64,000 nt of DNA. Source: Roseibium algicola (GTDB lineage: Bacteria; Pseudomonadota; Alphaproteobacteria; Rhizobiales; Stappiaceae). The DNA lies in contig NZ_CP019630.1 in NCBI RefSeq assembly GCF_001999245.1, positions 5,361,001 through 5,425,000 of the forward strand, read 5' to 3'. The first letter of the stretch is position 1, and the number at the start of each line of letters is the position of its first letter. The position numbers were made by a program, and so were the translations under genes. This document shows positions 41,577 to 60,588 of this stretch, in pieces. The notes under the pieces were generated by a model. It was not told where the DNA came from and did no database searches. It worked only from the letters and a program-made list of their open reading frames with translations.

Positions 41577-41792
41577 ACCTTCAGGTGCGGATCAAGGGTC
41601 CGTATCTATTCAAGTCCTCCCCGCGGCCTCCAACCGCACAAGCCCGGTATCCGCATCTTGCGGATGCCGCCCCTTTGAAGAGCAGACCGTCGACAGCAAG
41701 ACCTGCGCGGATGTTCCAACAGTATCGAATGATCGGCTACAGGCCATTCCGTCCCTTTCGGCTGAATGACCGCCGGTTCAAGGCTACGTCAC

Positions 41793-43349
41793 ATGAGCGA
41801 GACGGCACAAAGCGCATCCATCGACGGACGCAAGCTGTTCACCTTCCTCTGCATGGTGTTCGGCATGTTCATGGCGATTCTGGATATCCAGATCGTGTCC
41901 GCGTCCCTGTCGGAAATCCAGGCCGGGCTTGGAGCTTCCCAGGACGACATTCCCTGGGTGCAGACAAGTTACCTGATAGCGGAAGTCATCATGATCCCGT
42001 TGTCCGGATATCTCTCGCGCATGTTGTCGACGCGCTGGATGTTCGCGCTGTCAGCGGCCGGTTTCACGGTGATGAGCCTGATGTGCGCCACTGCCTCCAC
42101 GATCGAGGAAATGATCGTCTACCGTGCCTTGCAGGGGTTTCTCGGTGGCGGCATGATCCCGACGGTTTTCGCGACGGCTTATCTGATTTTCCCGCGTGAG
42201 AAATTCAACGTCATCTCTCCCGTGATCGGTCTTGTTGCAACGCTGGCACCGACCATCGGTCCGACGCTCGGCGGTTATCTCACCGAATTCGGCTCCTGGC
42301 ATTGGCTGTTCCTGATCAACGTGGTGCCGGGCATCTTCGTTACGCTTGCCGCTGTTACCCTGATCGATTTCGACGAGCCGGATCTGTCTCTGCTCGATCA
42401 TTTTGACTGGTATGGCTTCGCGGCCATGGCCATCTTCCTCGGTTCTCTGGAATTCGTTCTTGAAGAAGGTTCGGGCGAAGACTGGTTCCAGAGCGGCGAG
42501 ATCGTTTTCTTTTCCGCAATCACTGTGCTGGGAGCTGCGATCTTCTTCTGGCGGGCTTTCACGGCGCGAGAACCCATTGTCGATCTGAGAGCCTTTGCCG
42601 ACAAGAACTTCGCCATGGGCAGTCTTTTCAGCTTCATTATGGGGGTGGGGCTCTACGGCCTGACATATCTTTATCCGGTCTATCTGAGCGGCGTTCGCGA
42701 CTACACCTCGCTGCAGATTGGCGAGACCATGTTCGTGAGCGGTCTTGCCATGTTCCTTACAGCCCCGATTGCGGGGCGGCTGATGTCCGTGCTCGATCCG
42801 CGTGTGATGATGGCAATCGGTTTCTCCGGCTTTGCGATCGGCACCTACATGGTGACCGGTATTACGCACGATTGGGATTTCTGGGAGCTGCTGGTTCCGC
42901 AGATCCTGCGTGGCTGCTCGCTGATGCTGTGCATGGTGCCGATCAACAATATCGCCCTTGGTATGTTGCCGCCGCAGATGATCAAGAACGCATCTGGCCT
43001 GTTCAACCTGACCCGGAACCTGGGAGGTGCCGTCGGACTTGCGGTGATCAACACGCTGCTGACCAATCGGCAGGATTTCCACTACGAACGTATTTCCGAA
43101 ACGGTCAACTGGTCGCGTCCCGTCGTCAATGAGACATTGACCAACATGACACATGCGTTCTCGGAACTGGGTCAGAATGCGGAAACAGCGGCCTTGAAGA
43201 CGTTGTCTGGCATCGTCACCCGTGAAGCGTTCCTGCTTTCCTTCTCGGATATTTTCCTGATCCTGACAGGCTTGTTCCTCGCACTTGTCGCCGCGCTCTA
43301 TTTCGTGGAACGACCGAAACCGGCACCTGCCGGTGGTGGCGGTCATTGA
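41793..43349 (+). CDS. emrB: EmrB/QacA-type MFS drug transporter (DHA2)
   Basis: 518 residues from the ATG at 41793; an ATG 27 bases upstream is possible. About 14 hydrophobic segments are visible. Family motifs: FGMFMAILDIQIVSASLSEI, WVQTSYLIAEVIMIPLSGYLS, MCATASTIEEMIVYRALQGFLGGGMIPTVF, and PTIGPTLGGYLTEFGSWHWLFLINVVPG (motif C region). It pumps hydrophobic drugs or metabolites out with the adaptor encoded 216 bases upstream. The last 49 codons have a second, diverged copy at 48955-49122. Confidence 0.93.
   Translation: MSETAQSASIDGRKLFTFLCMVFGMFMAILDIQIVSASLSEIQAGLGASQDDIPWVQTSYLIAEVIMIPLSGYLSRMLSTRWMFALSAAGFTVMSLMCATASTIEEMIVYRALQGFLGGGMIPTVFATAYLIFPREKFNVISPVIGLVATLAPTIGPTLGGYLTEFGSWHWLFLINVVPGIFVTLAAVTLIDFDEPDLSLLDHFDWYGFAAMAIFLGSLEFVLEEGSGEDWFQSGEIVFFSAITVLGAAIFFWRAFTAREPIVDLRAFADKNFAMGSLFSFIMGVGLYGLTYLYPVYLSGVRDYTSLQIGETMFVSGLAMFLTAPIAGRLMSVLDPRVMMAIGFSGFAIGTYMVTGITHDWDFWELLVPQILRGCSLMLCMVPINNIALGMLPPQMIKNASGLFNLTRNLGGAVGLAVINTLLTNRQDFHYERISETVNWSRPVVNETLTNMTHAFSELGQNAETAALKTLSGIVTREAFLLSFSDIFLILTGLFLALVAALYFVERPKPAPAGGGGH
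43202..43349 (+). repeat. emrB 3' end, left copy of a diverged direct repeat
   Basis: The last 148 bases of emrB match 48961-49122 in the same orientation. Shared blocks include TTTTCCTGATCCTGACAGGC and CCGAAACCGGCACCTGCCGG. The copies lie about 5.7 kb apart and flank the subtilase, haloperoxidase and cyclase-TPR genes. Confidence 0.85.
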
Positions 43350-43391
43350 TTTCAAGATAGTGGATCATCCGGACGAGCGCTGCCGTGTTGA

Positions 43392-45446
43392 TCAGGCCTT
43401 TCTGTCCGGTCCGAAACGAATTCTTCGTTGCATCCGGCCGCCGCCAATTCGCGTATTGGCCGGTCTTGACGGTGGCGGATGATCGTCAAATGCGGCCTGT
43501 GCACTCACGTCACCCTTCGTTGCTGTTTGGCCTTGTGCAAGCCTGTCGGCCATCCATCGGGCAACCTGAGGTGTCGCGACACTGGTTCCATTGAGAGACA
43601 CCAGCGATCCGCAGCGTGATCCGGCACTCAATATGCCTCGCAGGACGGGTGTGTCGTCGCTGACCGCGGCTGCATCCGGACCGTTTCTCGTCGGACCGGT
43701 TGCATTGAATGCCGTTGTTACCGGGCCCGCGGCAGAATAGCCGGCCAGATCGTTGCGGGTTTCGACATATCCGGCAACAACGGCGGGAAACTCGCCGCAG
43801 GCAAAGCCGCTTATGGTGCCGCTGCGCTTGACCAGGCAATCGGATCCGGGCGGATCGATCGGCAAGGGGGCCCCAAAGCTGTCTAAACGCTGATAGTCGT
43901 CATTGTCGAAATAGGATTGACGTCCAAATGCCGGGAACCCGGGCAAGGTTTCGTCGCGCCGGATCCAGACCTGAACCCGATCGGTTTCGGTCAGGGCAAC
44001 ATTCTCGATTTCGATTTTCCAGACACCCGAAGGTGCCAAGTCATCCGTGACATCGTGATGAAAGGTCGGATGAACGCCGACGACAATGCAACCGCGCCAG
44101 GTTGGCGCATGGGGAGGTGTGTAGAGGATCCGGCCGAATTCCACGTTGTCTCCGGAATGGAGGATCGCAGTCTCTCCAGGCACTGTTGAAACCGGCGTAC
44201 TCCTCGGTCCCACGGGAGGCGTAACGCGCACTCTCACTAGGTTGTCAGGGTTCTCCTTCGGCGGCATCCAGATTTCGACGTAGCTCGCGCTGCGGTCGTC
44301 AGGTTGAATGCGCCAGTCTAGGCTGGCGGGCCTGACGTTACCCGTATCCTCATCCGTAAAGGTAACCTCCGCGTGGGTGCGCGCCAGATTGCCGTTCCCG
44401 GCAGGAAGAGCCACCTGGATTTCACGCTGGGTGGTCGAGTGAAGCTCTTGATCGATCTTCGCTTCGATCAGACCGGTACCATCGTGCGGTCCTGCAAAAT
44501 TCCCGAAACTGAAATTGACCACCAGCGGGATCCGCTTGCCGTGATCGGTCTCGAGCCGGTAGCGTTCCGCGTGTATCTTGATGAAGTCGATCGCGCGTCC
44601 GAGAGCTGGCAGGATCTGCGCTCCGCTGACATCCATGGTGAGATCGGTTGGCAGCTGCACGCAGATGATGGGGCGCGTGTTGTCCTTCGTGCCGGGTTGG
44701 TAACCGGCGGCAAGTCCCATCACATGGGTGCCGTGGGACACTCGCATGGCGGCCGGCTTGAGGCCGGGCCAGCTGTAGTCGATCAATCCGCACTGACTGT
44801 AGAAGCGGTGCTCATCGAGGAGCCCGCTGGACGTGTTCGCGGCAAGCAACCCGTCGATTTCGCTCCTGGCAAGGGCGTGGCCCTGCGGGACGACGAGGGT
44901 GCCGGTCCGCGGTTTGGCGTCCATGATCCAGGCAAAGGAAACGCGTGACGCATTTGGGTCGTTTTTTCGGAAAAGTTCATGGCCGAACGCGATGCCGTTG
45001 TCGATGACAGCGGTAACAACGGTGCCATCCTCGACAAATATTTCCGGCAAATTGCCGGGCATGATCTGCGCGCTCGTGTCGAGCTGTCCAACCGGAACGA
45101 CAGTCCCAAGGATGATGCGTTTTATGCCGAGTTGTCCCGCGTTCCTCGTCGCTTCCTGCAAGAAGATGTCTTTTGCGTAGAGTGAGGGATACAGGATCGC
45201 TTTCTTGGCCGCCCGCTGTTGCGCGGTATAGAAATTCGGGATGAGGACTGCGTCCTCAAGCCCGTTGCCACCGCCGATATCCTTGGCCCTGGCGATCAGA
45301 TCATCGAGTGAGATGTCATCGAGCTCGACGAGGATGTCCCACCAAGGGTCTTCTTCTCCGGATCCGAACTTTGCTGCAACAGCCAGCCGCCAGTTCGTGA
45401 CCGGATCGATTGAAAACTCATCAAGGGTTCCGTTGGTATCCGACAT
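43392..45446 (-). CDS. Subtilisin-like serine protease (S8) without signal peptide
   Basis: 684 residues; GGAGG precedes the ATG. No signal or membrane helix is seen at the N-terminus (MSDTNGTLDEF). Catalytic residues: Asp149 in VVTAVIDNGIAFGHELF, His238 in RVSHGTHVMGLAAG, Ser622 in LNGTSVATPQVARW. About 380 residues separate His and Ser, more than usual, and include VVNFSFGNFAGPHDGTG and a beta-rich insert (from VTFTDEDTGNVRPASLDW to DRVQVWIRRDE) that may be an inserted jelly-roll-like domain. The triad looks intact. It is in an accessory region with other enzymes lacking signals. The C-terminus is basic (MQRRIRFGPDRKA). Confidence 0.88.
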   Translation of the reverse strand: MSDTNGTLDEFSIDPVTNWRLAVAAKFGSGEEDPWWDILVELDDISLDDLIARAKDIGGGNGLEDAVLIPNFYTAQQRAAKKAILYPSLYAKDIFLQEATRNAGQLGIKRIILGTVVPVGQLDTSAQIMPGNLPEIFVEDGTVVTAVIDNGIAFGHELFRKNDPNASRVSFAWIMDAKPRTGTLVVPQGHALARSEIDGLLAANTSSGLLDEHRFYSQCGLIDYSWPGLKPAAMRVSHGTHVMGLAAGYQPGTKDNTRPIICVQLPTDLTMDVSGAQILPALGRAIDFIKIHAERYRLETDHGKRIPLVVNFSFGNFAGPHDGTGLIEAKIDQELHSTTQREIQVALPAGNGNLARTHAEVTFTDEDTGNVRPASLDWRIQPDDRSASYVEIWMPPKENPDNLVRVRVTPPVGPRSTPVSTVPGETAILHSGDNVEFGRILYTPPHAPTWRGCIVVGVHPTFHHDVTDDLAPSGVWKIEIENVALTETDRVQVWIRRDETLPGFPAFGRQSYFDNDDYQRLDSFGAPLPIDPPGSDCLVKRSGTISGFACGEFPAVVAGYVETRNDLAGYSAAGPVTTAFNATGPTRNGPDAAAVSDDTPVLRGILSAGSRCGSLVSLNGTSVATPQVARWMADRLAQGQTATKGDVSAQAAFDDHPPPSRPANTRIGGGRMQRRIRFGPDRKA

Positions 45447-45478
45447 GACTTGACCTCCGGTTCGACTTTGCTATGCGA

Positions 45479-46768
45479 TCACGAGCCGTCGTCTTCCAAA
45501 GGCGAGGCACCATCACCACCATCCTCGAGTGTTCCGCCACCGCTGCTGCCACCGGCACAGGGTTCCCTCAGGTCCAGCCATTCCTGCTTTGCGCGGTTCC
45601 ACAGCCAGGCCAGCGGCGTGGATTGAATGGTCGTGCCGGTGAGGGACGTTGTGGTTTCGTCGGCCCAGGCTCCCGGGTCCTTCTGCGTGTGGGTTGCCGG
45701 ATCGTAGAGCTGTGTCCAGTCGAAATCCCGGCTGTCAGGATACTGGTCACCGTGGAAAGTCCATCCCTTGATTTCATTGGAACCCTGGCACCGACCCGCG
45801 AAATAGGCGCCGAGCGTAAGCCCGAGAATTGCGCCGGCCTCGCTGTCGACCGGAAAATGTACACCCGCGACGGTGCGGTTTACTGCAATGCGCGAGGCCT
45901 GACGCATGAACATCTTGCCCCAGATCGTGTCGTCATAAGGCACGACACCGGCATCCCTCAGGAGGAGCCAAAGAACCCGGGCCAGCGTGAAGGCTTCCGT
46001 CGAATGACCGCTCGGCAGGGTGCCATGCGTGGGCGTCAGGATCATCGGCTGGATCTGCGGGGAGAATTCTATCGGACGCTTGCAGGCCAGGGCATACTTG
46101 ATCCGCATCTCCACCAGGTTGGCGAGACCCTGCGCAGTTGCCAACAGCTCGATCGTATATGGTGTTCGAGCCGGTGCGATGAATGCGATTGACCGCAGAA
46201 ATTCAACGGGTGTGCTGAGTTGGGCGATAATTTCAGCCGCACGATCCTGCCGCAGGTCTGCATAATTTGCCACGAGATCGAGCTGCTTCTTGAAGATCGC
46301 CATGGTTGGGCGAGACATCCTGGCAAGCATGGCATAAGCCGCGAGTGGCGTATCGGTCCCGTCAGGGTTGCTGGTCACGTTCACGTGCCATACCTGAGCC
46401 GTTCCGGAGCTCGTTCCCTCAAACTTGAAGGTGAAGCCGAGCCTCGATGCCAGTTCAAGTGCGTAAATGCTTTGCCGGACTTCCGGAGAGAGGCGGCCTA
46501 GAAAAGCATCGTATTCCGGGCAGTTCTCCTGGATGGCCGCTGTAACAGTCTGCCAGGTTCCGGCAATGCCATCGTGATTGGTGATCAGCGCGTTCACGAT
46601 CAGCGGTGAATCGAAGGAAGGGGCGCCGCCGAACCCGCCAAAGCCGCCAAAACCGCCAAATCCCCCGAAGCCCCCAAACCCTCCGAACCCGCCAAATCCC
46701 CCGAAGCCCCCAAATCCTCCAAAGCCCCCGAAGCCGCCTGCCGGATATGCTGTTTCCCTAGGTGTCAT
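45479..46768 (-). CDS. Vanadium-haloperoxidase/PAP2-type enzyme with (GGF)12 N-terminal domain
   Basis: 429 residues. Residues 11-48 are twelve Gly-Gly-Phe triplets plus GG, an intrinsically disordered stretch. The rest has the three PAP2/vanadium-haloperoxidase phosphate- or vanadate-binding motifs in order: K224-x6-R231P (KYALACKRP), PSGH at 252-255 (PSGHSTEAFTLAR), and R298-x5-H304 (NRTVAGVHFPVDSEAG). No membrane helices or signal peptide are visible, as in soluble vanadium enzymes and soluble acid phosphatases of this fold. Whether it oxidises halides or hydrolyses phosphate cannot be decided from the motifs. The C-terminus is Gly/Asp/Glu-rich (GGSSGGGTLEDGGDG). It lies 32 bases upstream of the subtilase gene in the same direction. 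Confidence 0.85.
   Translation of the reverse strand: MTPRETAYPAGGFGGFGGFGGFGGFGGFGGFGGFGGFGGFGGFGGFGGAPSFDSPLIVNALITNHDGIAGTWQTVTAAIQENCPEYDAFLGRLSPEVRQSIYALELASRLGFTFKFEGTSSGTAQVWHVNVTSNPDGTDTPLAAYAMLARMSRPTMAIFKKQLDLVANYADLRQDRAAEIIAQLSTPVEFLRSIAFIAPARTPYTIELLATAQGLANLVEMRIKYALACKRPIEFSPQIQPMILTPTHGTLPSGHSTEAFTLARVLWLLLRDAGVVPYDDTIWGKMFMRQASRIAVNRTVAGVHFPVDSEAGAILGLTLGAYFAGRCQGSNEIKGWTFHGDQYPDSRDFDWTQLYDPATHTQKDPGAWADETTTSLTGTTIQSTPLAWLWNRAKQEWLDLREPCAGGSSGGGTLEDGGDGASPLEDDGS
46631..46738 (-). repeat. 12 tandem 9-base repeats coding for GGF
   Basis: Each unit codes for Gly-Gly-Phe but codons vary (GGC, GGG, GGA, GGT; TTC, TTT), so the DNA copies are not identical. The protein repeat is perfect while the third positions differ, which suggests selection for the amino-acid pattern and an age greater than a recent slippage event. 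Confidence 0.95.
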
Positions 46769-46813
46769 GACTAACTCTCCCTACCTTTTTGATTGGCCGG
46801 TTCCGCTCCATTC

Positions 46814-48613
46814 TCAGGGCGGCAGTCCGGCTTGCCTTAGGGTTTCGGCGAAGTCCTTCCCAACCTGAAACTGCGCACTTGGCGAATTCTTCAGCCAGCG
46901 GCTTACGGTCAGATCCGGCTGACGCTCGCGCAGTTCGCTGATGGTCTGAGCTGCCAGTTCGGTGTGTCCAAGGCGCATTTCCGCGACAGCCTTGGCACGC
47001 AGCGTCGAGGTGTGCGCACGGTTGGAGCGAAGCGACTGATTGGCGAACTCGAGAGCGCGTTCATATTTTTCGGCCGTAACGCAGGCGGATGCCGCAAGCG
47101 ACAGGAAAAAGTACCTGTAGGGATCGATGGGAGACAGGCGGAGGGCCAGTTCCGTGTCCTTGACAGCCTCCTCGCCAGCTCCCTTGAACGCGAAGAGAGT
47201 GCCGCGCAGCAGGCGACCCATGGCATAATTCGGATTGTACTCGAGGGCCATGTTGTAACGCTGTTCAGCTTCTTCGAGCTTGTGCGCGAGATTTGTGAGG
47301 GCAAATCCTTCGGACACAAGGGCCGTGACATTTGTCGGGTCGTGGTCGAGCGCGGTTTGCGTGCAGCTCAACGCAAGAGATTTTTCGCGCTCGGGCGAAT
47401 CCGTCCAACCCTGTTGAACCGCCAGGACGTGCCATTTTGCCTTCCATGCCAAGGCCATTGCGGGTTGGCGCGACGAACGGTGAATCAGTTCGTCAAGAAG
47501 TTCGGCGGCGTATTCGAAATGGTGGCGCGAGAGCCTGTAGATCAGTCCAATCGCGCTCATGAGAAGCGAATAGGCATCGAGTGTCTGCATGGGGCAGGAC
47601 AGTGCCTGTTGCACCTCGCTCCGGAAGATTGCCGCGTGGCAGTCCTTGGCGAACTGATACATGACGGATGAATCGCTAAGGAGGGTAGGAACCTCCTCGC
47701 TCAGGCGATCCGACCAGATCACGCGACCGGTTTTTGCGTCGGCGAGTTCCGCGTCCAGAATTACGTGGTTTGCATCACCGCTATAGGTCCCCGACAGGAC
47801 AAAATCCGCCTGAAGCGTCTCCGAGATCTTGGCAAGGGAGATGTTCCGCATGCGAAAACCTGTCGTCGACAGGCGAGAAATGACATTGAGTTCCGAGGAC
47901 CGGGACAGTGCGACGATCAATTCCTCTGCGAGCACTTCACCGAGCACGTAATTGTCTCTTGATCTGCTGCGTGGCGTGAAGGGAATAACCGCGACGGTGG
48001 GGAACAGGTCTTCGAACTGCTGTAACGGAAAAATGCTCGGGTGGGTTCCCACGGGATGAACCCTGAAGGCCCGCACCGTCTCGGCGACATTCTTGAGGTG
48101 GCAATCACCAAGATCCTCGAATTCCGCGTCGAGTTCGCTTGCCAAAGCATCCCTGACCTCGGCGGAGGCAACAATCTCTCCGGGTCGGGCAAGTGACATG
48201 AGACGGGCAGCAATGTTGACGTGGCTGCCATAAATGTCGTCATCGCCGGTGGTGAGCACGTCGCCGGTGTCGATACCGATGCGAACCTGCAACCGGTTCA
48301 CAGCAGGGAGTTGCTCGTTAATCTTTGCCAGTTCCGTGGTGAGACGCATTGCAAACCGGACTGCACTCGTTGCGTGCTCGATTTCAGCCAGAATGCCGTC
48401 GCCCAATGACTTCACGAGCCTGCCATCGTGTTCCGGCAGAAGGTCATCTTTCAGGTAGGCGACAAAGGAAAGCCAAGCTCCTATGGATGCATTGTCGGCG
48501 GTCGTAAATAGCCGCGCAGATCCAACTACGTCGGCAAAAAGTATTACTTTCTGCCGATTCTCCCATTTTTCGAATAGCCGTACGGGCTTTCGGTATTCAG
48601 CGGCTGCCTGCAT
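46814..48613 (-). CDS. Class III cyclase with TolB-like middle region and TPR C-terminus
   Basis: 599 residues. Residues 20-190 are the cyclase domain: KVILFADVVGSARLF (first Asp), DGRLVKSLGDGILAEIEHA (Lys and second Asp), VRIGIDTGDVLTTG, and GSHVNIAARLMSLA. Key residues are present, so ATP-to-cAMP activity is plausible. Residues about 210-320 (TVAVIPFTPRSRSRDNYVLGEVLAEELIVALSRSSELNVISR) match the FlgO/TolB-like region common in alphaproteobacterial cyclases. From about 380 the protein is TPR helices (EQRYNMALEYNPNYAMGRLL, YERALEFANQSLRSNRAHTS). No membrane segment is visible. It is the third cyclase in the window and precedes the haloperoxidase gene by 45 bases in the same direction, so it could regulate that group. 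Confidence 0.9.
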   Translation of the reverse strand: MQAAAEYRKPVRLFEKWENRQKVILFADVVGSARLFTTADNASIGAWLSFVAYLKDDLLPEHDGRLVKSLGDGILAEIEHATSAVRFAMRLTTELAKINEQLPAVNRLQVRIGIDTGDVLTTGDDDIYGSHVNIAARLMSLARPGEIVASAEVRDALASELDAEFEDLGDCHLKNVAETVRAFRVHPVGTHPSIFPLQQFEDLFPTVAVIPFTPRSRSRDNYVLGEVLAEELIVALSRSSELNVISRLSTTGFRMRNISLAKISETLQADFVLSGTYSGDANHVILDAELADAKTGRVIWSDRLSEEVPTLLSDSSVMYQFAKDCHAAIFRSEVQQALSCPMQTLDAYSLLMSAIGLIYRLSRHHFEYAAELLDELIHRSSRQPAMALAWKAKWHVLAVQQGWTDSPEREKSLALSCTQTALDHDPTNVTALVSEGFALTNLAHKLEEAEQRYNMALEYNPNYAMGRLLRGTLFAFKGAGEEAVKDTELALRLSPIDPYRYFFLSLAASACVTAEKYERALEFANQSLRSNRAHTSTLRAKAVAEMRLGHTELAAQTISELRERQPDLTVSRWLKNSPSAQFQVGKDFAETLRQAGLPP

Positions 48614-48954
48614 GAATTCCCTCGTAGCGACAAAATCGCTCCACCTGAAAACAGTCTAAAATCAAATATTAGGCACAAATTTTTCGTAGAAATAATGAGG
48701 TAATTAACAATGATTGTTTCACGTAGACAGATTTTCACACGCATTTTCAACGCGAGCTGCGCCATGGACAGGCGAAAGTGCTCTGTGTCCACTTGCGTGC
48801 TTGATAATATATTTCCTTTTGTCGCTTCTAGCTTGCCTCCAATCTAGTCGTCTGTAAAGCAATACATTTATTACGCTAGGGAAGTTTTTCTTAAATATTT
48901 GAATTAGATTGTTTTGGATGCTCACTTGCACGTGATCGTCGGAAAATAGGGAGG
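48614..48954. promoter_or_regulatory. AT-rich leader upstream of the cyclase-TPR gene
   Basis: About 340 bases without a gene. Positions 48650-48720 are strongly AT-rich compared with the rest of the window and probably contain the leftward promoter of the cyclase-haloperoxidase-subtilase group. No palindromic operator was recognised. The composition change may also mark foreign DNA. Confidence 0.45.
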
Positions 48955-49122
48955 CGATGTGCTCTCGGTGCAATTGGCACTCGTGAAGCCTTCCGGCTGT
49001 CCTTTTCGGCTGTTTTCCTGATCCTGACAGGCTTGGTTCTTGCCTTTGTCGCCGCGGTCTCTTTCGTGGAGTGGCCGAAACCGGCACCTGCCGGCACTGG
49101 CGGAGGTCATGGATCCGTGTGA
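48955..49122 (+). pseudogene. Diverged remnant of an emrB 3' end
   Basis: Read in frame from about 48961, the segment codes ALGAIGTREAF, then RLSFSAVFLILTGLVLAF, VAAVSFVEWPKPAPAG, TGGGHGSV and a stop at 49120-49122. It matches the emrB C-terminus (LSGIVTREAF, LLSFSDIFLILTGLFLAL, VAALYFVERPKPAPAG, GGGH) at about 35 of 44 positions by eye. Upstream the match is lost, and no start codon or ribosome site is present, so this is a fragment. Same strand as emrB; about 5.7 kb away. Confidence 0.85.
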
Positions 49123-49418
49123 GCCGGCTATCTGGCCAGCCTTCTTGTTGAGTTACGGGTATCTAGCCAGTCGAAGTGATTTCGCCTTCGAACACCGGGA
49201 AGAGGGGGATCTTGGAATATTGCAACTTTCAATACACGTAATGGTATTGCAGTCGCATTCCGTCAACCTAGGGCGTTACATCTTCGTTATTTCATGCTAA
49301 CGTAGCTGCCTGTTTGAAAAACAGATTGATGCGCTTTTGATTTGCAGGCGCCGAAAGTAAATTTTCGCTTTTCAAAATTCAGATGACTGTTCTCTCGAGT
49401 TTTCAATGGGAGGAAATA
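49123..49418. other. Region between the emrB remnant and the tyrosinase gene
   Basis: About 296 bases. No gene was seen. An AT-rich section near 49300-49400 leads to the ribosome site of the tyrosinase gene (GGGAGGAAATA) and probably includes its promoter. Confidence 0.4.
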
Positions 49419-50867
49419 ATGGCAGGCATAAGAAAAGACATTGCCAAGCTCGGCGGGCCATGGTCCGAAACGATGCTTTGGTATGCGCGAGCCGTTGGTG
49501 AACTGCGGTCGCGCCAGTTGCGTGATCGGACAAGCTGGCTCTACCTGGCAGCGATCCACGGCATCAATCCGCAGGGTTGGATTGACCAGAACATCATTTC
49601 ACCGACCACGCCGGCGCCAAACGCCGACGAGCAACGATTGATGTTCAACCAGTGTCAGCATGCGGGTTGGTTTTTCCTGCCCTGGCACAGGGGCTATCTG
49701 CATGCGTTCGAGGCAATCCTGGCAGACTGGATTGTCAGCCAGGGCGGTCCGACTACATGGGCATTGCCCTACTGGAATTATCTCAACGGGTCTGATCCAG
49801 CGTCGCGAGACTATCCGCAGGAGTTTCTGGACAGCACCATTCCGGGTGACAACACGCCGAACCCGTTGGCCAACGCGTTTCGTGGCCCTGCCGTGAAACT
49901 TGGTCCGCAGGCCTGGATCAATGTCGACATTTCGCTCGACGCGCAAACCACGCAGACCGTTTATACATCAATCCCCGGCACGCTTGGATATGGCGGTCCT
50001 ATCAGCGGTTTCGACCAGCAGGGCAATGCCTATGGTGCGGTCGAAAGTGACCCGCACAATTTCGTGCATGTCATGGTGGGCGGCAACGTACCGCCCAGTC
50101 CGACCGGCTGGATGTACGATCCGGATTTTGCCGGTCTCGATCCGATCTTCTGGGTTCACCATTGCAACATCGACCGCTTGTGGGCGGCCTGGATGACCGG
50201 GGGAGGCAACTCCCAGGAAACCAGCCGGCCCTGGCTCAACGGGCCGTTCCCGCGCCAATTTGCGATGCCGGACGCACAGCAAAATATTTCCATTTTCACG
50301 CCGGAAGACACGCTGCCGGGCGCGGCTCTTGCGCCGGTCTATGATAATCTGATCGATGGAACGGGCATTACGCCCACCGTGGGGATTGCAATGGCCACCA
50401 CACCGACAGGTCGGGGCACTTCGACACTCGTCGGGGCAAACGACGAGGTGCTGCAGGTTACCGCAAGTCCGGTAACAGCACGCGTGAAATTGGCTGCAGC
50501 GCCAACTGCGGCCCTTGCTGCTGCAGCTCCGGCCGCAGCGGAGCGACTTTATCTCAACGTTGAAGGTGTCCGGGGGACCACTCCGAGCGGTGTTCTTTCC
50601 GTTCGTGTTGTTGCGCCAGGCATACCGGATGCGGAAATCAACGAAACTCTGGTGTTCTTCGGCCTTGGCAAGGCCAGTTCAACCGACGGCTCGCACGCAG
50701 GCAACGGCCTGTCATCAACCGTGGAAATCACCGACAAGGTTGCGGCCATGCAGGCGCGTGCTGGTGCTGCAATCCAGGAGCTTGAAGTCAGTCTCGTTCA
50801 GCCAGAGGGAGCCTCGTCGGAAATTACCGTCGACCGGATCAGCATCTACCGTCTCAGGGTTAGATGA
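49419..50867 (+). CDS. Tyrosinase-family type 3 copper oxidase
   Basis: 482 residues from the ATG at 49419 with GGAGGAAATA upstream. No signal peptide. CuA site: H47 (LAAIHGIN), H81 and H90 (CQHAGWFFLPWHRGYLHAFE). CuB site: H213 and H217 (DPHNFVHVMVGG), then H247/H248 (DPIFWVHHCNIDRLW). These give a complete dinuclear copper centre for oxidising phenols to quinones. The C-terminal region from about residue 385 (RLYLNVEGVRGTTPSGVLSV, SEITVDRISIYRLRVR) is a beta-rich domain like the C-terminal shielding domain of plant and fungal polyphenol oxidases, which could keep the enzyme inactive until removed. An Ala-rich linker precedes it. Translation is coupled to the DUF2182 gene. Confidence 0.93.
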   Translation: MAGIRKDIAKLGGPWSETMLWYARAVGELRSRQLRDRTSWLYLAAIHGINPQGWIDQNIISPTTPAPNADEQRLMFNQCQHAGWFFLPWHRGYLHAFEAILADWIVSQGGPTTWALPYWNYLNGSDPASRDYPQEFLDSTIPGDNTPNPLANAFRGPAVKLGPQAWINVDISLDAQTTQTVYTSIPGTLGYGGPISGFDQQGNAYGAVESDPHNFVHVMVGGNVPPSPTGWMYDPDFAGLDPIFWVHHCNIDRLWAAWMTGGGNSQETSRPWLNGPFPRQFAMPDAQQNISIFTPEDTLPGAALAPVYDNLIDGTGITPTVGIAMATTPTGRGTSTLVGANDEVLQVTASPVTARVKLAAAPTAALAAAAPAAAERLYLNVEGVRGTTPSGVLSVRVVAPGIPDAEINETLVFFGLGKASSTDGSHAGNGLSSTVEITDKVAAMQARAGAAIQELEVSLVQPEGASSEITVDRISIYRLRVR

Positions 50868-50868
50868 C

Positions 50869-51693
50869 ATGTCCCGGCTGGCGGCCTTTGCCGTGCAGAC
50901 CAGTCGGGGCGCAATGCCCTGGCTGGTTGCCTTGAGCGCGGGCAGCTACCTCCTGCTCGGTTTCGCACAACCAGCTTCGAACGTCGCGGCTATTTGCGGG
51001 CGACTGAATGTTGCGCAATCCGTTTACCTGCCCGCACCGAACCTTCAATTCTCGCAGATCTTGCAAGCGGTAGCCGCGGACTGGATCCTGATGGTCGTCG
51101 CCATGATGGCGCCGCTGGTTGCTGCCAATCTGTCTTATGTCGGCCGAGTGGTGCATGCGTCCCAAAAGGTGGCTGCAAGTATTGCCTTTCTGCTCGGTTA
51201 TCTCTGCGTCTGGATCTTGTCGGGCCTGTTGCTTGTGCCACTGGCGTTTGTCCTGGCGCTTGCCGGCACCTGGATCGACCTGTCGTTGGCGTTCGGTGTC
51301 GCTGTCGTTTGGAGTATGTCCCCGCTCGCCCAATGGGCCAGAAACAGGTGCCACGGTACTAGCCGGATGGCAGCTTTCGGACAGGAGGCACAGGCTGATG
51401 GTTGCTGGTTCGGTCTTCGAACCGGGGCGGCTTGTGTGTTTGCTTGCTGGCCCTGGATGCTTGTGCCTTTGCAGGTGGAGACCGGCCACATTGCCGTGAT
51501 GGTGCTGACAGGTCTCTATCTTTTCGCCGACCGGATTGCACCGCCTGCCGCGCCAGTCTGGCGCCTGCCTCCGGCACTGGAAACTGTCCTGGGGGTGTCG
51601 CTCCTGCCAGGAGGACGCAGAGCGAACAGGCACAGTCCGCCCCACACCAAGCCGCTTGCTGCAACAAGCCAGCCTGTCCGGACACGCCATTGA
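50869..51693 (+). CDS. DUF2182 integral membrane protein
   Basis: 274 residues; its ATG lies one base after the tyrosinase stop, so the two are translationally coupled. Hydrophobic helices include WLVALSAGSYLLLGFAQP, DWILMVVAMMAPLVAANLSYVG, VAASIAFLLGYLCVWILSGLLLVPLAFVLAL and ACVFACWPWMLVPLQV. The signature WILMVVAMMAP and CW..ML of DUF2182, a predicted metal-binding membrane family, are present; Cys and Met residues could bind copper. An exact role is not known. A copper- or quinone-related job next to tyrosinase is an inference. The C-terminus (from residue 235) is basic and Pro-rich. Confidence 0.82.
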   Translation: MSRLAAFAVQTSRGAMPWLVALSAGSYLLLGFAQPASNVAAICGRLNVAQSVYLPAPNLQFSQILQAVAADWILMVVAMMAPLVAANLSYVGRVVHASQKVAASIAFLLGYLCVWILSGLLLVPLAFVLALAGTWIDLSLAFGVAVVWSMSPLAQWARNRCHGTSRMAAFGQEAQADGCWFGLRTGAACVFACWPWMLVPLQVETGHIAVMVLTGLYLFADRIAPPAAPVWRLPPALETVLGVSLLPGGRRANRHSPPHTKPLAATSQPVRTRH

Positions 51694-51711: not shown

Positions 51712-53238
51712 ATGCCGATCAATTTCATTCCGAACGACCCGAGAGCTGGACACCCGCCTTCAGCCGTCATCGAGGCGCATGCTGAGCGACCAGATGAACT
51801 GGCCCGGTATGTCTATCTGGGCTCCGTCCCGGAAGACACATATCCAACTGACAGCGACGGCTTTCTGTTCTGGCAGTGCCGCGAGGCCGCTCTCAGAGCC
51901 ATCGACCTTTGGGAGTTGATCGACGGGAGTACGCTGACCACGTGGCAGAACGGGAAAACCCTGCGGCTGAAACACAAGACACCGGGGCAGCCTCAACTCA
52001 ATGCCTATTACGACAGGCTTTCGCTTTCGTTTTTTCAGGTGGATGCTGCCGGGGGAGACAGTTACCGCTCAGGGGCAAGTACCGATGTTGTCGCACACGA
52101 GGCGGGCCATGCCTTTCTGGATGCAATCCGCCCGGACCTTTGGGGGGCTTTTCAGGCGGAGCCGGGTGCTTTTCACGAAGCCTTCGGAGACTGCATCGCA
52201 ATTCTCGTCGCGCTTCAGGACAAGGCGACCCGCCAGGTGCTTGTGGATCAAGGGTTGTTGAGACAGAAGAACTTTGTCGAGACCACTGCAGAGGATCTGT
52301 CCCACGGTATTGCCGTCCTGGTCGACGCAAATCACAATGCGGCGGTCCCACGGCGCGCTCTCAACACACATCAATGGGTGATGCCGGCCTCCTTGCCGGT
52401 GTCAGGTGGCCCGGGCGTTCTGATCAACGAAGTACATTCGCTGGGCATGATCTTCAGCGGTTGTTTTTACGACACGCTGACGAACATCTATCAGTCGCGC
52501 GGTGTGGAGAGCGAAAAAGGATTGCTGGCGGCGGCAAGGACGGCGGGAGAGTTGCTGGTTGCTGCTGCGCGTACGGCGCCACTTAAGCCTCGATTTTTCC
52601 AGGCTGTCGGCAACGCCATGCTGATTGCGGACGGAATGCGCAATGCCGGGGTCAATGCCCAGGCAATCCGGGACGGGTTCGAGAGCCATAATGTGCTGTT
52701 GAATGCCGAACAACTGACATCCCCCACCGTAGTTCTGGCTGGCCGACCGCCTTCGGAAACCGTTCATTCCGTTCGTGATGTGCTGACACAGGCCTCCCGC
52801 CGCAGCCTGCTGGAAGTCACCGGAGATGATACGGATCAGCGGTTCTACGGCAGCCGGGTTCAGCTTGGCGATCAGTCGGTAGCAGCCGTTCGGCGGCGCC
52901 AGAAAGTCTCGCTCGCAGATGTCGCCAGCGATCTGGAAGGCGTCTATTGCTACGTTGAGGAAGACGTCCTCATCGGTGAGCAAAACGGGAATGCCGCCCT
53001 GCTGGGCGAGGTGGAGACAGTTCGGCAATCCGCTGTCGAGGCGCAAAGCTTTGTCTTCAGCCTGCATGCCGCCGGTCAGATTTCCGAAGAGGCTCACAGC
53101 CGGGCAGGCGACGATACGATCGGTGCCGTGAGCCATGTGGTCAGTCACGTGGGGGAGGAGCGTCGATTGCTTCGAAAGCGTTTCAATTGCCGGTGTCACG
53201 CTCTTCCAGGTACGGCAAGAGCCTTCCTGTGCACTTGA
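51712..53238 (+). CDS. Thermolysin-like zinc metalloprotease without signal peptide
   Basis: 508 residues; AGGAGG precedes the ATG 18 bases after the DUF2182 stop. The zinc motif HEAGH is at 129-133 (STDVVAHEAGHAFLDAI) and the third ligand Glu156 with Asp160 is in PGAFHEAFGDCIAIL, the same spacing and pattern as NEAISD in thermolysin. Later LINEVHSLGMIFSGCFYDTLTNIY resembles the region that holds the catalytic His in M4 enzymes (VHxxS/G). There is no signal peptide, and no M4 propeptide. The last 170 residues have no clear family; the end contains several Cys and basic residues (RKRFNCRCHALPGTARAFLC). Its stop abuts that of the convergent gene directly. Confidence 0.82.
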   Translation: MPINFIPNDPRAGHPPSAVIEAHAERPDELARYVYLGSVPEDTYPTDSDGFLFWQCREAALRAIDLWELIDGSTLTTWQNGKTLRLKHKTPGQPQLNAYYDRLSLSFFQVDAAGGDSYRSGASTDVVAHEAGHAFLDAIRPDLWGAFQAEPGAFHEAFGDCIAILVALQDKATRQVLVDQGLLRQKNFVETTAEDLSHGIAVLVDANHNAAVPRRALNTHQWVMPASLPVSGGPGVLINEVHSLGMIFSGCFYDTLTNIYQSRGVESEKGLLAAARTAGELLVAAARTAPLKPRFFQAVGNAMLIADGMRNAGVNAQAIRDGFESHNVLLNAEQLTSPTVVLAGRPPSETVHSVRDVLTQASRRSLLEVTGDDTDQRFYGSRVQLGDQSVAAVRRRQKVSLADVASDLEGVYCYVEEDVLIGEQNGNAALLGEVETVRQSAVEAQSFVFSLHAAGQISEEAHSRAGDDTIGAVSHVVSHVGEERRLLRKRFNCRCHALPGTARAFLCT

Positions 53239-54135: not shown

Positions 54136-54717
54136 TCAGACGCGTTGCAGGAATTCAATGACCCGCCGGGTGAGCAGGGCAGACGCTTCTGCATCAAACG
54201 ATGGTAGCGACCTATCGGCGAAATAGTGCTCCTCTCCGGGATAGAGAAAAAGAGCTGCATCCTCTGCCGTATCGACGATCGCGCGCGCGGCATCGATGTC
54301 ACCCTCGCCGACGAAGAAAGGATCATTGTCCATTGCGTGGATTTGAACAGGGACGCCATTAGGCCAGGGCCCAAAAGACCAGTCACCGCTGATCGGCAGG
54401 CAGGAGTGGATCAGCAAGGCAGCCCGTGCTCCAGGCCGGGTTTGAGCAAGCTTCTGCGCCGGCAACACACCAAACGAGAAACCCGCGTAGACGAGATCGT
54501 GGGGGAGGTCATCTGCCAAATGGACACCGCGTTCGCGCATCTCGTCAAAGCCGGTTTCCTCGATGAAGGCGAGGCCCTTCTCGATGCTGTTGAACGTTTT
54601 ACCCTCGAACAGATCCGGCGTGTGCACTTTGTGACCGGCCTGTCGCAGATCGTCTGCAAACTTCAGCACCCCGGAAGTCAAGCCAAGCGCATGGTGAAAC
54701 AGCAGAACCTCAGACAT
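54136..54717 (-). CDS. Dienelactone hydrolase-family alpha/beta hydrolase
   Basis: 193 residues from the ATG at 54717 with GGAGGAG upstream. The order of family motifs is present: VLLFHHALGLTSGVLKFADDLRQAGHKVHTPDLFEG, then VYAGFSFGVLPAQKLAQTRP, where the nucleophile elbow is G-F-S-F-G (Ser rather than the Cys of classical dienelactone hydrolase), then NDPFFVGEGDIDAARA, and LFLYPGEEHYFADRSLPSFD with the catalytic His. It should hydrolyse an ester or lactone. The location after the tyrosinase cluster allows a role in processing oxidised phenolics, but this is an inference. Confidence 0.82.
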   Translation of the reverse strand: MSEVLLFHHALGLTSGVLKFADDLRQAGHKVHTPDLFEGKTFNSIEKGLAFIEETGFDEMRERGVHLADDLPHDLVYAGFSFGVLPAQKLAQTRPGARAALLIHSCLPISGDWSFGPWPNGVPVQIHAMDNDPFFVGEGDIDAARAIVDTAEDAALFLYPGEEHYFADRSLPSFDAEASALLTRRVIEFLQRV

Positions 54718-55038
54718 CTGGCTCCTCCAGAAGTGGAAAATATCACGCAGCAAGGCATCATGTCATCGGTGGGGCCATGCAAAGTGCGATCCGCCTCCGG
54801 GGACGCCTATACGTCGGACGGACTTCTGGCTTTCCGAAGCTGATTGGCAGCGAGAGTGGTAACACGTGGTACTGCGCGCGGGCAGGAAGGAGGTTGAGCG
54901 ATCTCTATTTTCATTTCGGGTTGTCAGACCTCCCGGTGCTCTTCGCGCGCCGCGCCTGTTGCCTCGCGTTTTTGCCTTCCGGACTTTGTAGTCCGGAAGG
55001 CTGTATTCGTGAAATTGAAGATCTGCTGCTTGCTCAGC
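54718..55038. other. Intergenic region with a strong hairpin
   Basis: About 320 bases between the start of the DLH-like gene and the 3' end of the sulfatase gene. Besides the hairpin at 54974-55001 nothing was recognised. Confidence 0.4.
54974..55001. terminator. Strong 11-bp hairpin downstream of the sulfatase gene
   Basis: GCCTTCCGGAC / GTCCGGAAGGC with a 6-base loop, perfect over 11 pairs, 37 bases after the sulfatase stop on the minus strand. There is no T-run in either direction, so it is a terminator-like or RNA-stabilising element. Confidence 0.55.
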
Positions 55039-56574
55039 TTACTGCGGTGGCGGCGCAGCGTTCATAATCCGCTTCGACATGTCCTCAACAGACGTGGAGA
55101 AACTGGCAATCCGCGGCGGGAATTCCTCGAAGGAGGCAACAAACTTGTTCACCAGGCCGAGTGCTGGACCGATGGCCCAGGACCTGTTCTCCTGCCATTC
55201 GTCAAATCCCCGGGCGTCGTGGAACCGTTCAAAGGGATCGAGATCGAGGCGCGTGATCAACGGGGAGGTCATTTCATACTGGTTGCCGTTGAACCAACGG
55301 TCTTGGCTGGTGAATAGGAACTTCCATTCCCCGAACCGCAGGCCGTGGAAAGTGGTTTCAGTGAAATAGAAGAACTCCATCCGGTTGGAAGGCCCGGTTT
55401 GGGTCAGCAACGGGGTCTGGTCATAGCCGTCCAGATGAACCTTGAAGGTCTTGCCGCCAATGTCCGCACCCGCCAGAAGCTGTTCCTTGATGTCTGGCTG
55501 ACCCAGTTGGGACATGATGGTCGGGATCCAGTCCTCCATTGTCATAAGTTCGCCGGTGGTGGTTCCAGCCGGCGTTACTCCGGGCCAGCGAACTGCCATC
55601 GGCACCTTGAAGCCGCCTTCATAACCGCCCACGCCCTTTTCACCCCGGAAAGGCTGGTTGCCGCCGTCGGGCCAGGAATTGGACGCCGCACCGTTGTCGG
55701 TGGAGAACATCACCATCGTATTGTCGGCGACGCCAAGTTCGTCCAGCAGGTTCAGAAGCTCACCCACGTCGTCGTCCAGTTCCACCATGCCGTCGGCATA
55801 GACATTGCCGGTGCCGGTGATGCCGTCATAATGGTCGTTCAGGTTGGTGCGATAGTGCATGCGGGTGGTGTTGTGCCAGACGAAGAACGGCTCGTTGGCG
55901 GTGACAGCCTCCGTAATGAAGCGCTTGCTTTCTTCAAGCACGTCCTGGTCAAGGTTGCGCTGAACTTCCTGTCCGAACGGGCCGAGATCCTCGATCTCCT
56001 GACCGCCATCTGCTTTTGCAAAGCTGTGAATGATGCCTCGCTGTGCCAGGTTCGCATCCTCGAAAGCCTGTGCCGGATAATCCACCTGCTCGATATATTC
56101 CCCGGCGTTCAGGTGGTAGAGGATCCCGAAGAATTCATCGAACCCGTGGTTTGTGGGCAGATGTTCGTCCCGGTCACCAAGATGGTTCTTTCCGAATTGG
56201 CCGGTGCGGTATCCCAAGGGCTTGAGCATTTCGGCCAGTGTCGGATCTTCGGTCGAAAGACCTTGTGGCGCACCGGGGAGACCGACGGTGGACAGGCCGA
56301 CCCTAAGCGGGTACTGGCCCGTGATGAAGGCCGCCCGGCCTGCGGTACAGGACGCCTGGGCATAATGGTCCATGAAGAGCATGCCTTCGTTTGCGATCCT
56401 GTCGATATTCGGCGTTTCGCCTGCCATCATGCCTCGGTGGTATGCCGAGATGTTCCACATCCCGACGTCATCCCCCCAGATGACGAGAATATTTGGCTTG
56501 TCTGGTTCCTGGGCTGTGGCAGCTACCGGGGCCAGGCAGGCAGCAAGTGCCGCTGCCGCAATAAGTTTCAACAT
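55039..56574 (-). CDS. Exported arylsulfatase-type sulfatase
   Basis: 511 residues from the ATG at 56574 with AAGGAG upstream; a GTG one codon earlier is also open. A Sec signal ends ACLAPVAATAQ. Metal Asp pair in ILVIWGDDVGMWN; the formylglycine site is QASCTAGRAAFITGQYP (C-T-A-G-R, Ala for the usual Pro), with the Cys expected to be oxidised to formylglycine. MFSTDNGAASNSWPDGG and FRGEKGVGGYEGGFKVP are typical of the family. It should release sulfate from organic sulfate esters in the periplasm; marine polysaccharide or phenolic sulfates are possible substrates. A dedicated sulfatase-activating enzyme gene is not seen in this window. Confidence 0.93.
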   Translation of the reverse strand: MLKLIAAAALAACLAPVAATAQEPDKPNILVIWGDDVGMWNISAYHRGMMAGETPNIDRIANEGMLFMDHYAQASCTAGRAAFITGQYPLRVGLSTVGLPGAPQGLSTEDPTLAEMLKPLGYRTGQFGKNHLGDRDEHLPTNHGFDEFFGILYHLNAGEYIEQVDYPAQAFEDANLAQRGIIHSFAKADGGQEIEDLGPFGQEVQRNLDQDVLEESKRFITEAVTANEPFFVWHNTTRMHYRTNLNDHYDGITGTGNVYADGMVELDDDVGELLNLLDELGVADNTMVMFSTDNGAASNSWPDGGNQPFRGEKGVGGYEGGFKVPMAVRWPGVTPAGTTTGELMTMEDWIPTIMSQLGQPDIKEQLLAGADIGGKTFKVHLDGYDQTPLLTQTGPSNRMEFFYFTETTFHGLRFGEWKFLFTSQDRWFNGNQYEMTSPLITRLDLDPFERFHDARGFDEWQENRSWAIGPALGLVNKFVASFEEFPPRIASFSTSVEDMSKRIMNAAPPPQ

Positions 56575-57069
56575 CACGCGGCTCCTTCATGAACGATAAG
56601 TCCATCAAACAGCCCAATGATCCCATACGTCAAATGGATTGCAAAAATTCTGTATGCAAACTTTGGGTGTGAGTTAATGCGAGTGTTCGAACAAGAAGGG
56701 TATATGCCACCGGAAAGTGAGCTGCTGATTTCGGGACATGGTGGCAAAGACTTCCAAAGTTGCATCGACCAGACAGTTCAGTGAACGTTGACGATTTACC
56801 CCAAGCAAAGTCCAATTCGTTGCTGGATAATATCCCGGGGAAATTGCATACTGTAGCTTCGCTACCAAATTGAAGTTGTTCTTTTTCTTCGGGTGTTGGG
56901 AGCTCGTATTGAAAAGGTGGCCCGGCAGACTGGCGAGTATGAGAGTAGAGGACTGCCTTCATGCAAAAATCGGTCTGTCAAACGGGCGGTAAGTGCGCAA
57001 GCAAGTGGAAATCGACACACAGGGCCATGCAGCAAACCCGTAGCGACTTTTGAGGCAGGAGAGGCGGAC
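56575..57069. other. Intergenic region upstream of the sulfatase and outer-membrane protein genes
   Basis: About 495 bases between divergent genes. AT content is somewhat higher at 56600-56720, where a sulfatase promoter could lie. Open frames on both strands here do not resemble known families. No operator was recognised. Confidence 0.45.
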
Positions 57070-58053
57070 GTGGGCGAGACCAGAACCAGCAAAGCACGCA
57101 GACACTCACTCACCTTGAAGGTGTCGCTGTTCGCACTGATGTGCCTTGCGGGCACACCGCAGCAGGCAAACTCGGCTGAAAGCGGTGTCGGGTTCTATCT
57201 GCTTGGGTCCAAGGGGCCATTTGCGGCGGTGCTGCCCGGGCCGGGTGTCTACTTTCAAAATGACGTCTATTTCTATTCAGGGTCTGCCGGGGCGAGCCGT
57301 GACCTGCCTGTTGGCGGCAGGGTTATCGGCAATGTCGACGCGACCGCCTATATCGATCTCGCAACAGGCTTGTGGGTTGTACCGACAAGCGTACTTGGGG
57401 GCAGCCTTGCCCTGCAGGCGACGGTTCCCTGGGGTGGACAATCCGTCGATGCTTCACTTGATGCCGGCGGAATTCTCGGAGCGTCTGTCAGCGATACGGT
57501 GTTCACGATTGGTGACCCCGTTGTTGGCGCCTCGCTGGGCTGGCACAACGGCAATTGGCACTGGACGACGGGTTTCCTCGTCAACGTGCCGGTGGGGGAC
57601 TACCAGAAAGGCGAGATTGCCAACGTTGCCTTCAATCGTTGGGGGCTCGACATCAACGGTGGCGTGACCTGGTTCGATCCTAAAAGCGGTTGGGAGGTTT
57701 CTGGTGTCGCCGGTTTCACCTTCAACGGCGAAAACCCGGCCACGAACTACACCACCGGAACGGAATTTCACTTCGAAGGGGCGCTCACCAAAACCTTTTC
57801 ACCCCAGTTCTCGGCGGGACTGGTCGGCTATTACTACGACCAGATTACAGCCGACAGCGGATCCGGCGCCAGGCTTGGCGATTTCGAGGGGCGCGTTGCC
57901 GCACTCGGCGGCACGGCGGGCTACAATTTCCAGCTCGGCCAGACACCGGTCTCGACACGCGTGAAGGTTTACCGGGAGTTCGCTGCGGAAAATCGTCTGG
58001 AAGGGACGTCGGCCTATCTCACCCTGACGATCCCGCTGGGCGTCAAACAGTAG
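57070..58053 (+). CDS. Outer-membrane barrel, phenol meta-pathway transporter family
   Basis: 327 residues from a GTG at 57070 with AGGAGAGG upstream. The signal is LKVSLFALMCLAGTPQQANSAE. The mature part alternates strands of aromatic and polar residues as in beta-barrels: GFYLLGSKGPFAAVLPGPGVYFQNDVYFY, GNWHWTTGFLVNVPVGDYQKGEIANVAFNRWGLDINGGVTWFDP, and it ends with a strand (EGTSAYLTLTIPLGVKQ). This fits the COG4313 / MetA-pathway-of-phenol family of outer-membrane proteins that are thought to take up aromatic or hydrophobic compounds. It lies opposite the sulfatase, so transport of a sulfated aromatic is possible. Confidence 0.8.
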   Translation: MGETRTSKARRHSLTLKVSLFALMCLAGTPQQANSAESGVGFYLLGSKGPFAAVLPGPGVYFQNDVYFYSGSAGASRDLPVGGRVIGNVDATAYIDLATGLWVVPTSVLGGSLALQATVPWGGQSVDASLDAGGILGASVSDTVFTIGDPVVGASLGWHNGNWHWTTGFLVNVPVGDYQKGEIANVAFNRWGLDINGGVTWFDPKSGWEVSGVAGFTFNGENPATNYTTGTEFHFEGALTKTFSPQFSAGLVGYYYDQITADSGSGARLGDFEGRVAALGGTAGYNFQLGQTPVSTRVKVYREFAAENRLEGTSAYLTLTIPLGVKQ

Positions 58054-60430: not shown

Positions 60431-60471
60431 ACAAAAAGAAAACCCGCCCGATCGTTTCCGATGGGCGGGTT
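60431..60471 (-). terminator. nrdJ terminator
   Basis: Stem AACCCGCCC / GGGCGGGTT with a 13-base loop. On the minus strand it is followed by TTTTCTTTTTG, a good terminator tail. It lies about 125 bases after the nrdJ stop. Confidence 0.8.
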
Positions 60472-60560
60472 CTTTCGTCTGGGCGCCGGGAGCCGCGCTG
60501 TGGCCGGTGGTAACCGGCCTGGGCGAACTCCCGGCTAAGCTTTGTGTGCGATCGAATTCA

Positions 60561-60588
60561 GACTTCCGGCCGGTGCCGGCCGGAAGTC
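60561..60588. terminator. GC-rich hairpin just after nrdJ
   Basis: Perfect stem GACTTCCGGCCGG / CCGGCCGGAAGTC with a two-base TG loop centre, 9 bases after the nrdJ stop. There is no T-run, so it probably protects the mRNA 3' end or assists the terminator further downstream. Confidence 0.55.

Follow-up and report, generated by a model that had tools for sequence, protein, structure and literature searches.

A decayed second emrB 3' end, the probable mark of gene acquisition at a variable slot of Roseibium algicola, and the conserved tripeptide-array module that it flanks

We analysed a 64,000-nt stretch of the Roseibium algicola genome (hereafter the window) in which the efflux gene emrB and a second copy of its 3' end bracket a block of three genes. 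The bracket is genuine and of an ordinary type: it marks gene acquisition in a variable slot, where an accessory block came to lie next to a core gene with no recombinase in sight. Of greater importance than the relic is the block, a conserved unit present in Stappiaceae and also in four genomes of the class Alphaproteobacteria that are more distant. Its middle gene encodes an array of identical tripeptides whose peptide is uniform and whose DNA is largely randomised at synonymous sites, which gives a direct handle on a system for which we found no description in the titles and opening abstract lines of the papers listed. The features are listed in Table 1.

Table 1. Features of the emrB-nrdJ slot in the window
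Feature	Position	Strand	Remarks
emrB, intact multidrug-efflux MFS gene	41766..43349	+	Reference 3' end at 43212-43342
Subtilase (S8) with Csp-protease-like predicted fold; module gene 3	43392..45446	-	Pfam, fold match
PAP2-superfamily protein with N-terminal (GGF)12 array; module gene 2	45479..46768	-	Pfam, fold match
12 perfect GGF units, residues 11-46	46631..46738	-	9 different 9-mers; coordinates derived from residue numbers
Class III cyclase - FlgO-like - TPR regulator; module gene 1	46814..48613	-	Pfam
AT-rich leader between module and emrB relic	48614..48972		GC 0.438 at 48500-48999
emrB relic, decayed second copy of the 3' end	48973..49103	+	Frame continues to 49122
Tyrosinase (49383-50867) and PpoB2-type copper chaperone (50917-51693)	49383..51693	+	Second gene pair of the slot
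Sulfatase (-) and outer-membrane protein (+)	55032..58053		Only 3' ends left in the IAM 12614 slot
nrdJ terminator region, where the variable slot ends on the right	60433..60582		Present in relatives

A repeat search followed by alignment shows that the two emrB ends form a direct repeat of 131 nt with 83% identity (109/131 bases). In the 6.65-Mb genome of the window, the relic matches the emrB DNA with E 5.1e-34 and the EmrB protein over 49 residues at 76% identity (E 2.3e-13), which rules out chance similarity or a short shared motif as the source of the match and confirms the original prediction that the C-terminal end of emrB recurs in the same orientation. The other six emrB matches in this genome are all distant MFS paralogues of 23-28% identity. 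The relic lacks the 5' part of emrB, as predicted, and also its stop codon, so that the frame runs three residues further to a stop at 49120-49122. This stop agrees with the predicted end of the fragment (48955-49122), while the predicted start lies too far upstream, since sharp similarity begins only at about 48969-48973 and the alignment before it is gappy and weak. The three minus-strand genes expected between the two copies are present, and the AT-rich leader is real. The region thus shows the anatomy of homology-facilitated illegitimate recombination (HFIR): an intact emrB, a new block and a same-orientation 3' fragment of emrB. No word of at least 7 bases is shared between the junction stretches 43331-43420 and 48931-48990, and the leader shares nothing above the level of shuffled sequence with the nearest module (L157).

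By amino acid identity, the window's emrB is nearest, among named relatives, to the genes of Roseibium aggregatum IAM 12614 (97%) and Stappia sp. BW2 (95%), and those of strain BW5 and R. aggregatum SY-2-12 reach 89% each. For the tree of both emrB ends that had been proposed as a check, eight emrB genes were aligned, the fragment was added, and its placements were AU-tested under GTR+G on a backbone with the topology of the free tree; HKY+G agrees. The best placement of the relic is beside its own emrB (AU p 0.85), and the split uniting the two has an ultrafast bootstrap of 86 in the free tree. Placement basal to or with the IAM 12614 and BW2 pair is not rejected (AU p 0.29). Placement with IAM 12614 alone or BW2 alone gives AU p 0.03 on the full alignment, where the SH test does not reject it (p 0.20), and AU p 0.15, again without rejection, on the 138 shared columns. 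The test rejects an origin beside BW5, beside SY-2-12 or on the branch that the two share (AU p 0.002-0.013), and with it any donor from outside the clade of the window's emrB, IAM 12614 and BW2. The relic is also more similar to its own emrB end than to each of the six other aligned emrB ends.

We polarised the changes at 135 sites by taking the state shared by IAM 12614 and BW2 as ancestral. The relic branch carries 14 changes, at codon positions 1/2/3 in the numbers 4/5/5, and the branch of the window's own emrB carries 4 (1/0/3), with 5 ambiguous sites (1/0/4). Between the working emrB genes of the window and IAM 12614, the differences are 17/5/163. Because the changes in the relic are spread evenly over the codon positions, it has evolved without visible coding constraint, as a dead copy. 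The event that made it is old, as originally suggested. The relic is a pseudogene remnant of the emrB 3' end of this lineage or of a very close one. No relic was detected in 44 other genomes of the genus, one per species, in which a more decayed copy could escape detection; five of these match the relic query, at their own emrB end (G002, G026, G034 and G019) or over 38 nt (G024). Near relatives of emrB on plasmids were also looked for, and the only matches are two weak ones in Loktanella.

The interval between emrB and nrdJ is a variable slot whose content keeps changing, as seen in four related genomes, the window's included. On the upstream side of emrB, collinearity with IAM 12614 and BW2 is kept, with gaps. 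Downstream, homology to BW2 returns only at about 60.43 kb (60435), and homology to IAM 12614 returns in pieces (55032-55214, 57916-58049 and 60433-60582). The next conserved gene after the slot is nrdJ, which is present in 45/45 genomes of the genus. The two genes face each other at a distance of 17.2 kb in the window, 9.9 kb in BW2 and 42.0 kb in SY-2-12, and lie on two separate contigs in IAM 12614. The slot of the window holds the three-gene block, the tyrosinase pair, a metallopeptidase, a sulfatase, an outer-membrane protein and an M20 peptidase (Pfam). An AraC regulator, a flavoprotein and a periplasmic binding protein occupy the slot of BW2 (3 ORFs scanned), and genes for CoA metabolism, a binding protein, a phytochrome kinase, a copper-type ATPase and cytochromes occupy that of SY-2-12 (13 ORFs scanned). 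The slot of IAM 12614 contains a caspase-like gene, 3' relics of the sulfatase and outer-membrane protein genes, and a TniQ/TniB/Mu-type transposon. The expectation that the arrangement is specific to the strain agrees with these other contents and with the missing relic in the 44 genomes; the block does stand beside emrB as originally described, within a variable interval that is larger than had been claimed. Part of the slot variation may be loss rather than gain, since the SY-2-12 slot holds ordinary metabolic genes.

Several further features of the slot were observed. In IAM 12614, the caspase-like (Peptidase_C14) gene lies close downstream of emrB (L042:12485-14290), and the 3' ends of the divergent sulfatase and outer-membrane protein genes abut (L042:14549-14866), as from one internal deletion. 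The transposon of this strain lies at L042:15328-21131, and the homology on the nrdJ side resumes on another contig with an overlap of 5 bases (window 60578-60582). The tyrosinase, with a DUF7868 domain, and the PpoB2-type copper chaperone recur together in two other genomes of the genus (L173:7802-10139 and L174:9307-11531). Behind this pair in the window, 51712-53238 encodes a weakly M36-like metallopeptidase below the Pfam cut-off, and the convergent gene at 53239-54108 matches no family in Pfam, NCBIfam or PADLOC.

The original prediction saw no integrase or transposase, and this holds for the 10 proteins of the interval that were scanned with Pfam (ORF 54136-54753 was left out). None of the three block proteins is an integrase, recombinase or transposase by Pfam, and there are no tRNA genes at 36000-64000. 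In composition, the block is among the more deviant parts of the window in its 4-mers, as only 5 of 147 counting windows deviate more and 4 of those overlap the block, and the tripeptide array itself adds to this deviation. The GC3 of the block (0.65-0.67) lies inside the range of its neighbours (0.63-0.79). GC3 shows no contrast with the flanks and is rejected as a mark of foreign origin.

We favor, with moderate confidence, the reading that the module settled behind emrB by emrB-anchored recombination, which left the lineage's own 3' end as a dead relic. Donor DNA from a close relative, carrying emrB and the module, would have recombined with the recipient through emrB homology on one side and would have been joined without homology inside or beside the recipient's emrB end on the other. 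The recipient's old emrB 3' end would then have been left as an orphan and have decayed. We infer this transfer route and this order of events; displacement by HFIR that leaves orphan 3' ends is a model put forward by Kirchberger et al. (PMC5361080) for the immunity-gene arrays of V. cholerae, and they name Rhs as well. A genome with emrB beside the module and without the relic, as the proposed donor would be, was not found among the species representatives searched. The lack of a shared word at the two junctions, the GC3 within the range of the neighbours and the possible losses in the slot also weigh against this reading.

Duplication is a serious rival, tentative as it is. Here an emrB segment would have been duplicated in tandem around the module, or the module would have entered a duplicated emrB, and the second copy would later have lost its 5' part. 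According to Kirchberger et al. (PMC5361080), duplication predicts that copies within one genome are nearest relatives, and the relic is nearest, weakly, to its own emrB. A same-species donor would give the same tree. A deletion that leaves only 3' ends is documented in this very slot by the abutting sulfatase and outer-membrane protein ends of IAM 12614. However, duplication requires two events, and the module must still come from outside, as it is a free-standing unit elsewhere and its cyclase and PAP2 genes are unmatched in IAM 12614 and BW2.

An unlikely history is that a circular element with an extra emrB 3' end integrated in the Campbell manner and later lost its integrase. Integration of this type is known for phage 21 or e14 in icd, and the direct repeats of a gene's 3' end around the block would fit it. 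So would the arrangement in BW2, where the nrdJ terminator region is present as direct copies on either side of a 9.5-kb insert. These copies lie at L043:11756-11835 (80 nt, behind emrB) and L043:21378-21414 (37 nt); as general evidence of the same mechanism they are weak, since a 35-nt copy occurs elsewhere in the window's own genome and a 38-nt copy in the SY-2-12 slot. Against this history, the three block proteins include neither an integrase nor any other mobility function, there is no tRNA at 36000-64000, and the 131-nt repeat is much longer than a usual att core. The original prediction had also offered a donor of a different species as one explanation of the divergence, but an emrB end brought by the block from such a donor is very improbable, as only the identity of just 83% speaks for it, whereas the AU test prefers the own emrB and rejects BW5, SY-2-12 and their joint placement, the identity to each of the six other ends is lower, and the excess divergence has no codon-position bias.

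The block is a conserved module of a TPR regulator, a PAP2 protein and a Csp-like subtilase. The PAP2 protein gives 28 matches in 22 of 87 Stappiaceae genomes (E <= 1e-20), and all 28 places were examined (the window's own, 18 loci and 9 more). The subtilase is adjacent in 28/28 of them and the regulator in 26/28; no regulator was found in L205 and L206, and that of L207 is divergent. Outside the family, five PAP2 genes were found in four other genomes, from a sample of 289 in the class with the window's genome included, and both the subtilase and the regulator are adjacent in 5/5. Over all loci, PAP2 and subtilase adjoin in 33/33, with the regulator alongside in 31/33. The gene order is identical in 16/16 loci compared, and there is no emrB match in those stretches. 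In IAM 12614 and BW2, neither the cyclase gene nor the PAP2 gene has a match.

The regulators share a build in which a variable N-terminus is joined to TPRs. Pfam scans of the window's regulator and 10 of the 30 others place a class III cyclase domain in the window, L158 and L163 (the last just over the cut-off), and a Trans_reg_C winged helix in L162 and L164. Five others (L165, L170, L189, L202 and L204) show only TPRs by Pfam and a SARP-like winged-helix N-terminus by eye, and the one in L201, without a Pfam domain, is assigned by 26% identity only. The matches of the window's cyclase to PycC are confined to the cyclase domain (best E 2.5e-8), and the other four proteins scanned have no PADLOC match. 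Pycsar defence, or a defence system of any kind, was rejected, as these proteins give neither PADLOC support nor an adjacent effector that senses cyclic nucleotides.

The subtilase shows no signal peptide by eye, and its residues D149, H238 and S622 are invariant in 41 sequences. Its structural model has a pLDDT of 83, and the nearest folds are clostridial Csp proteases. The PAP2 protein likewise shows no signal peptide by eye, and its model also has a pLDDT of 83, except in the array (<40). The middle gene had been predicted as a haloperoxidase; the gene is there, and the name is better replaced by PAP2 protein, given the Pfam assignment and a Foldseek ranking led by acid phosphatases, with the first haloperoxidase at rank 25. 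Residues K224, R231, P252-S253-H255, R298 and H304 are invariant in 49 sequences; they are shared across the superfamily and do not distinguish phosphatase from haloperoxidase.

The N-terminal array consists of 7-14 identical tripeptides in 30/33 PAP2 genes, by a criterion of at least 7 perfect units; these are 24 arrays (the window's own, 18 loci and 5 outside the family) and 6 more. The array-bearing loci are the window, L157-L172, L189, L190, L200-L204 and L207-L213, with 5 AGD units in L207; L205 and L206 have about 3 GDH units. The unit differs by lineage, being GGF, GSL, NGL, SGV, GGI, GGV, GGL, GGA, SGT, SGA, NAE, NAD or AGD. The 24 arrays comprise 250 units. If cyclic order is disregarded, 12 peptides occur among them, and the distinct 9-mers, counted array by array and summed, number 200. 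Orthologous arrays differ synonymously: those of L160 and L161 encode the same peptides at an identity of 93.5% over 108 nt. Between L165 and L166, every unit is changed from GGI to GGV at a CDS identity of 81%. At least 13 unit changes are needed on the 24-member tree of the array-free part of PAP2, in which some long branches are of unsure position. In a synonymous-codon test of 8 of the 24 arrays against random codons, 4 fall within the 95% range, the units of L160 and L204 are more alike than random codons, and those of L170 and L172 are less alike. This test does not support an origin of the array by recent slippage.

As the synonymous codons are largely randomised and the unit is uniform and lineage-specific, the comparison of these genes indicates that the array is kept by selection on the peptide, with a uniformity that is strong and not absolute. 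In the scanned loci, 863 open frames of at least 200 aa contain 31 runs of at least 6 perfect units, of which 24 belong to PAP2 genes, 6 fall within masked sequence and the last is a Thr run, which indicates that the array is specific to the PAP2 protein. Some results count against the array reading. A period-3 run was detected in only 5 of the 120 listed database homologues (155 found), and many entries begin behind the array, such as P0001, which is 98% identical to the window's PAP2. Several visible database N-termini are imperfect (GAF/GSF, AAF/GNS, GGW/SGS and NGHSLQ). Among close homologues, the (GGI)n array of L210:8805-9944 is also imperfect, with one unit broken by Arg.

A speculative and rather doubtful reading is that the module is a signalling system of a new kind with the array as its working part, in which the subtilase would cut the PAP2 array and the TPR regulator would read the repeat, once released or exposed, and answer through its DNA-binding or cyclase domain. 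If this were true, the tripeptide would be a lineage-specific signal. A less bold reading, which fits the same data, is that the array is a regular, self-assembling tail, of which the uniformity rather than the sequence is selected.

Known TPR regulators include the one-component CadC type, with a winged helix and TPRs, and the RRNPP peptide receptors. The module regulators resemble both in that a DNA-binding or signal-making N-terminus is joined to TPRs, and that of the window differs in its output domain, a class III cyclase, and in that peptide binding is putative. The TPR regulator, the array and the protease are encoded side by side, and processing, export and binding of a peptide as in RRNPP signalling would be putative. 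The subtilase is similar in fold to clostridial CspA/B/C (PDB 4i0w, 9pr8; Foldseek E 3.6e-23 and TM 0.76 by target length for CspB), yet its identity to them is 13-18%, it shows no sign of a role in germination, and it stands beside PAP2 and a TPR regulator. The PAP2 protein shares the PAP2 core of class A bacterial acid phosphatases (PDB 7f17, 1d2t; Foldseek E about 1e-6) and differs from them in the lack of a signal peptide by eye, the extra N-terminal region and the tripeptide array. At the level of the locus, the slot is comparable to gene-transfer hotspots between core genes (PMC5635113), with a fixed flanking pair and turnover of the content between; unlike those hotspots, it is described here from four genomes, with the flanks of IAM 12614 on separate contigs. 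In comparison with the T6SS immunity arrays of V. cholerae and Rhs loci (PMC5361080), the remnant here is a decayed efflux-pump end without retained function, and a single displacement is visible, with the donor arrangement not found among the genomes searched. The layout is nevertheless the same as in those arrays and Rhs loci, with an intact anchor gene, a new block, a displaced 3' remnant and no integrase.
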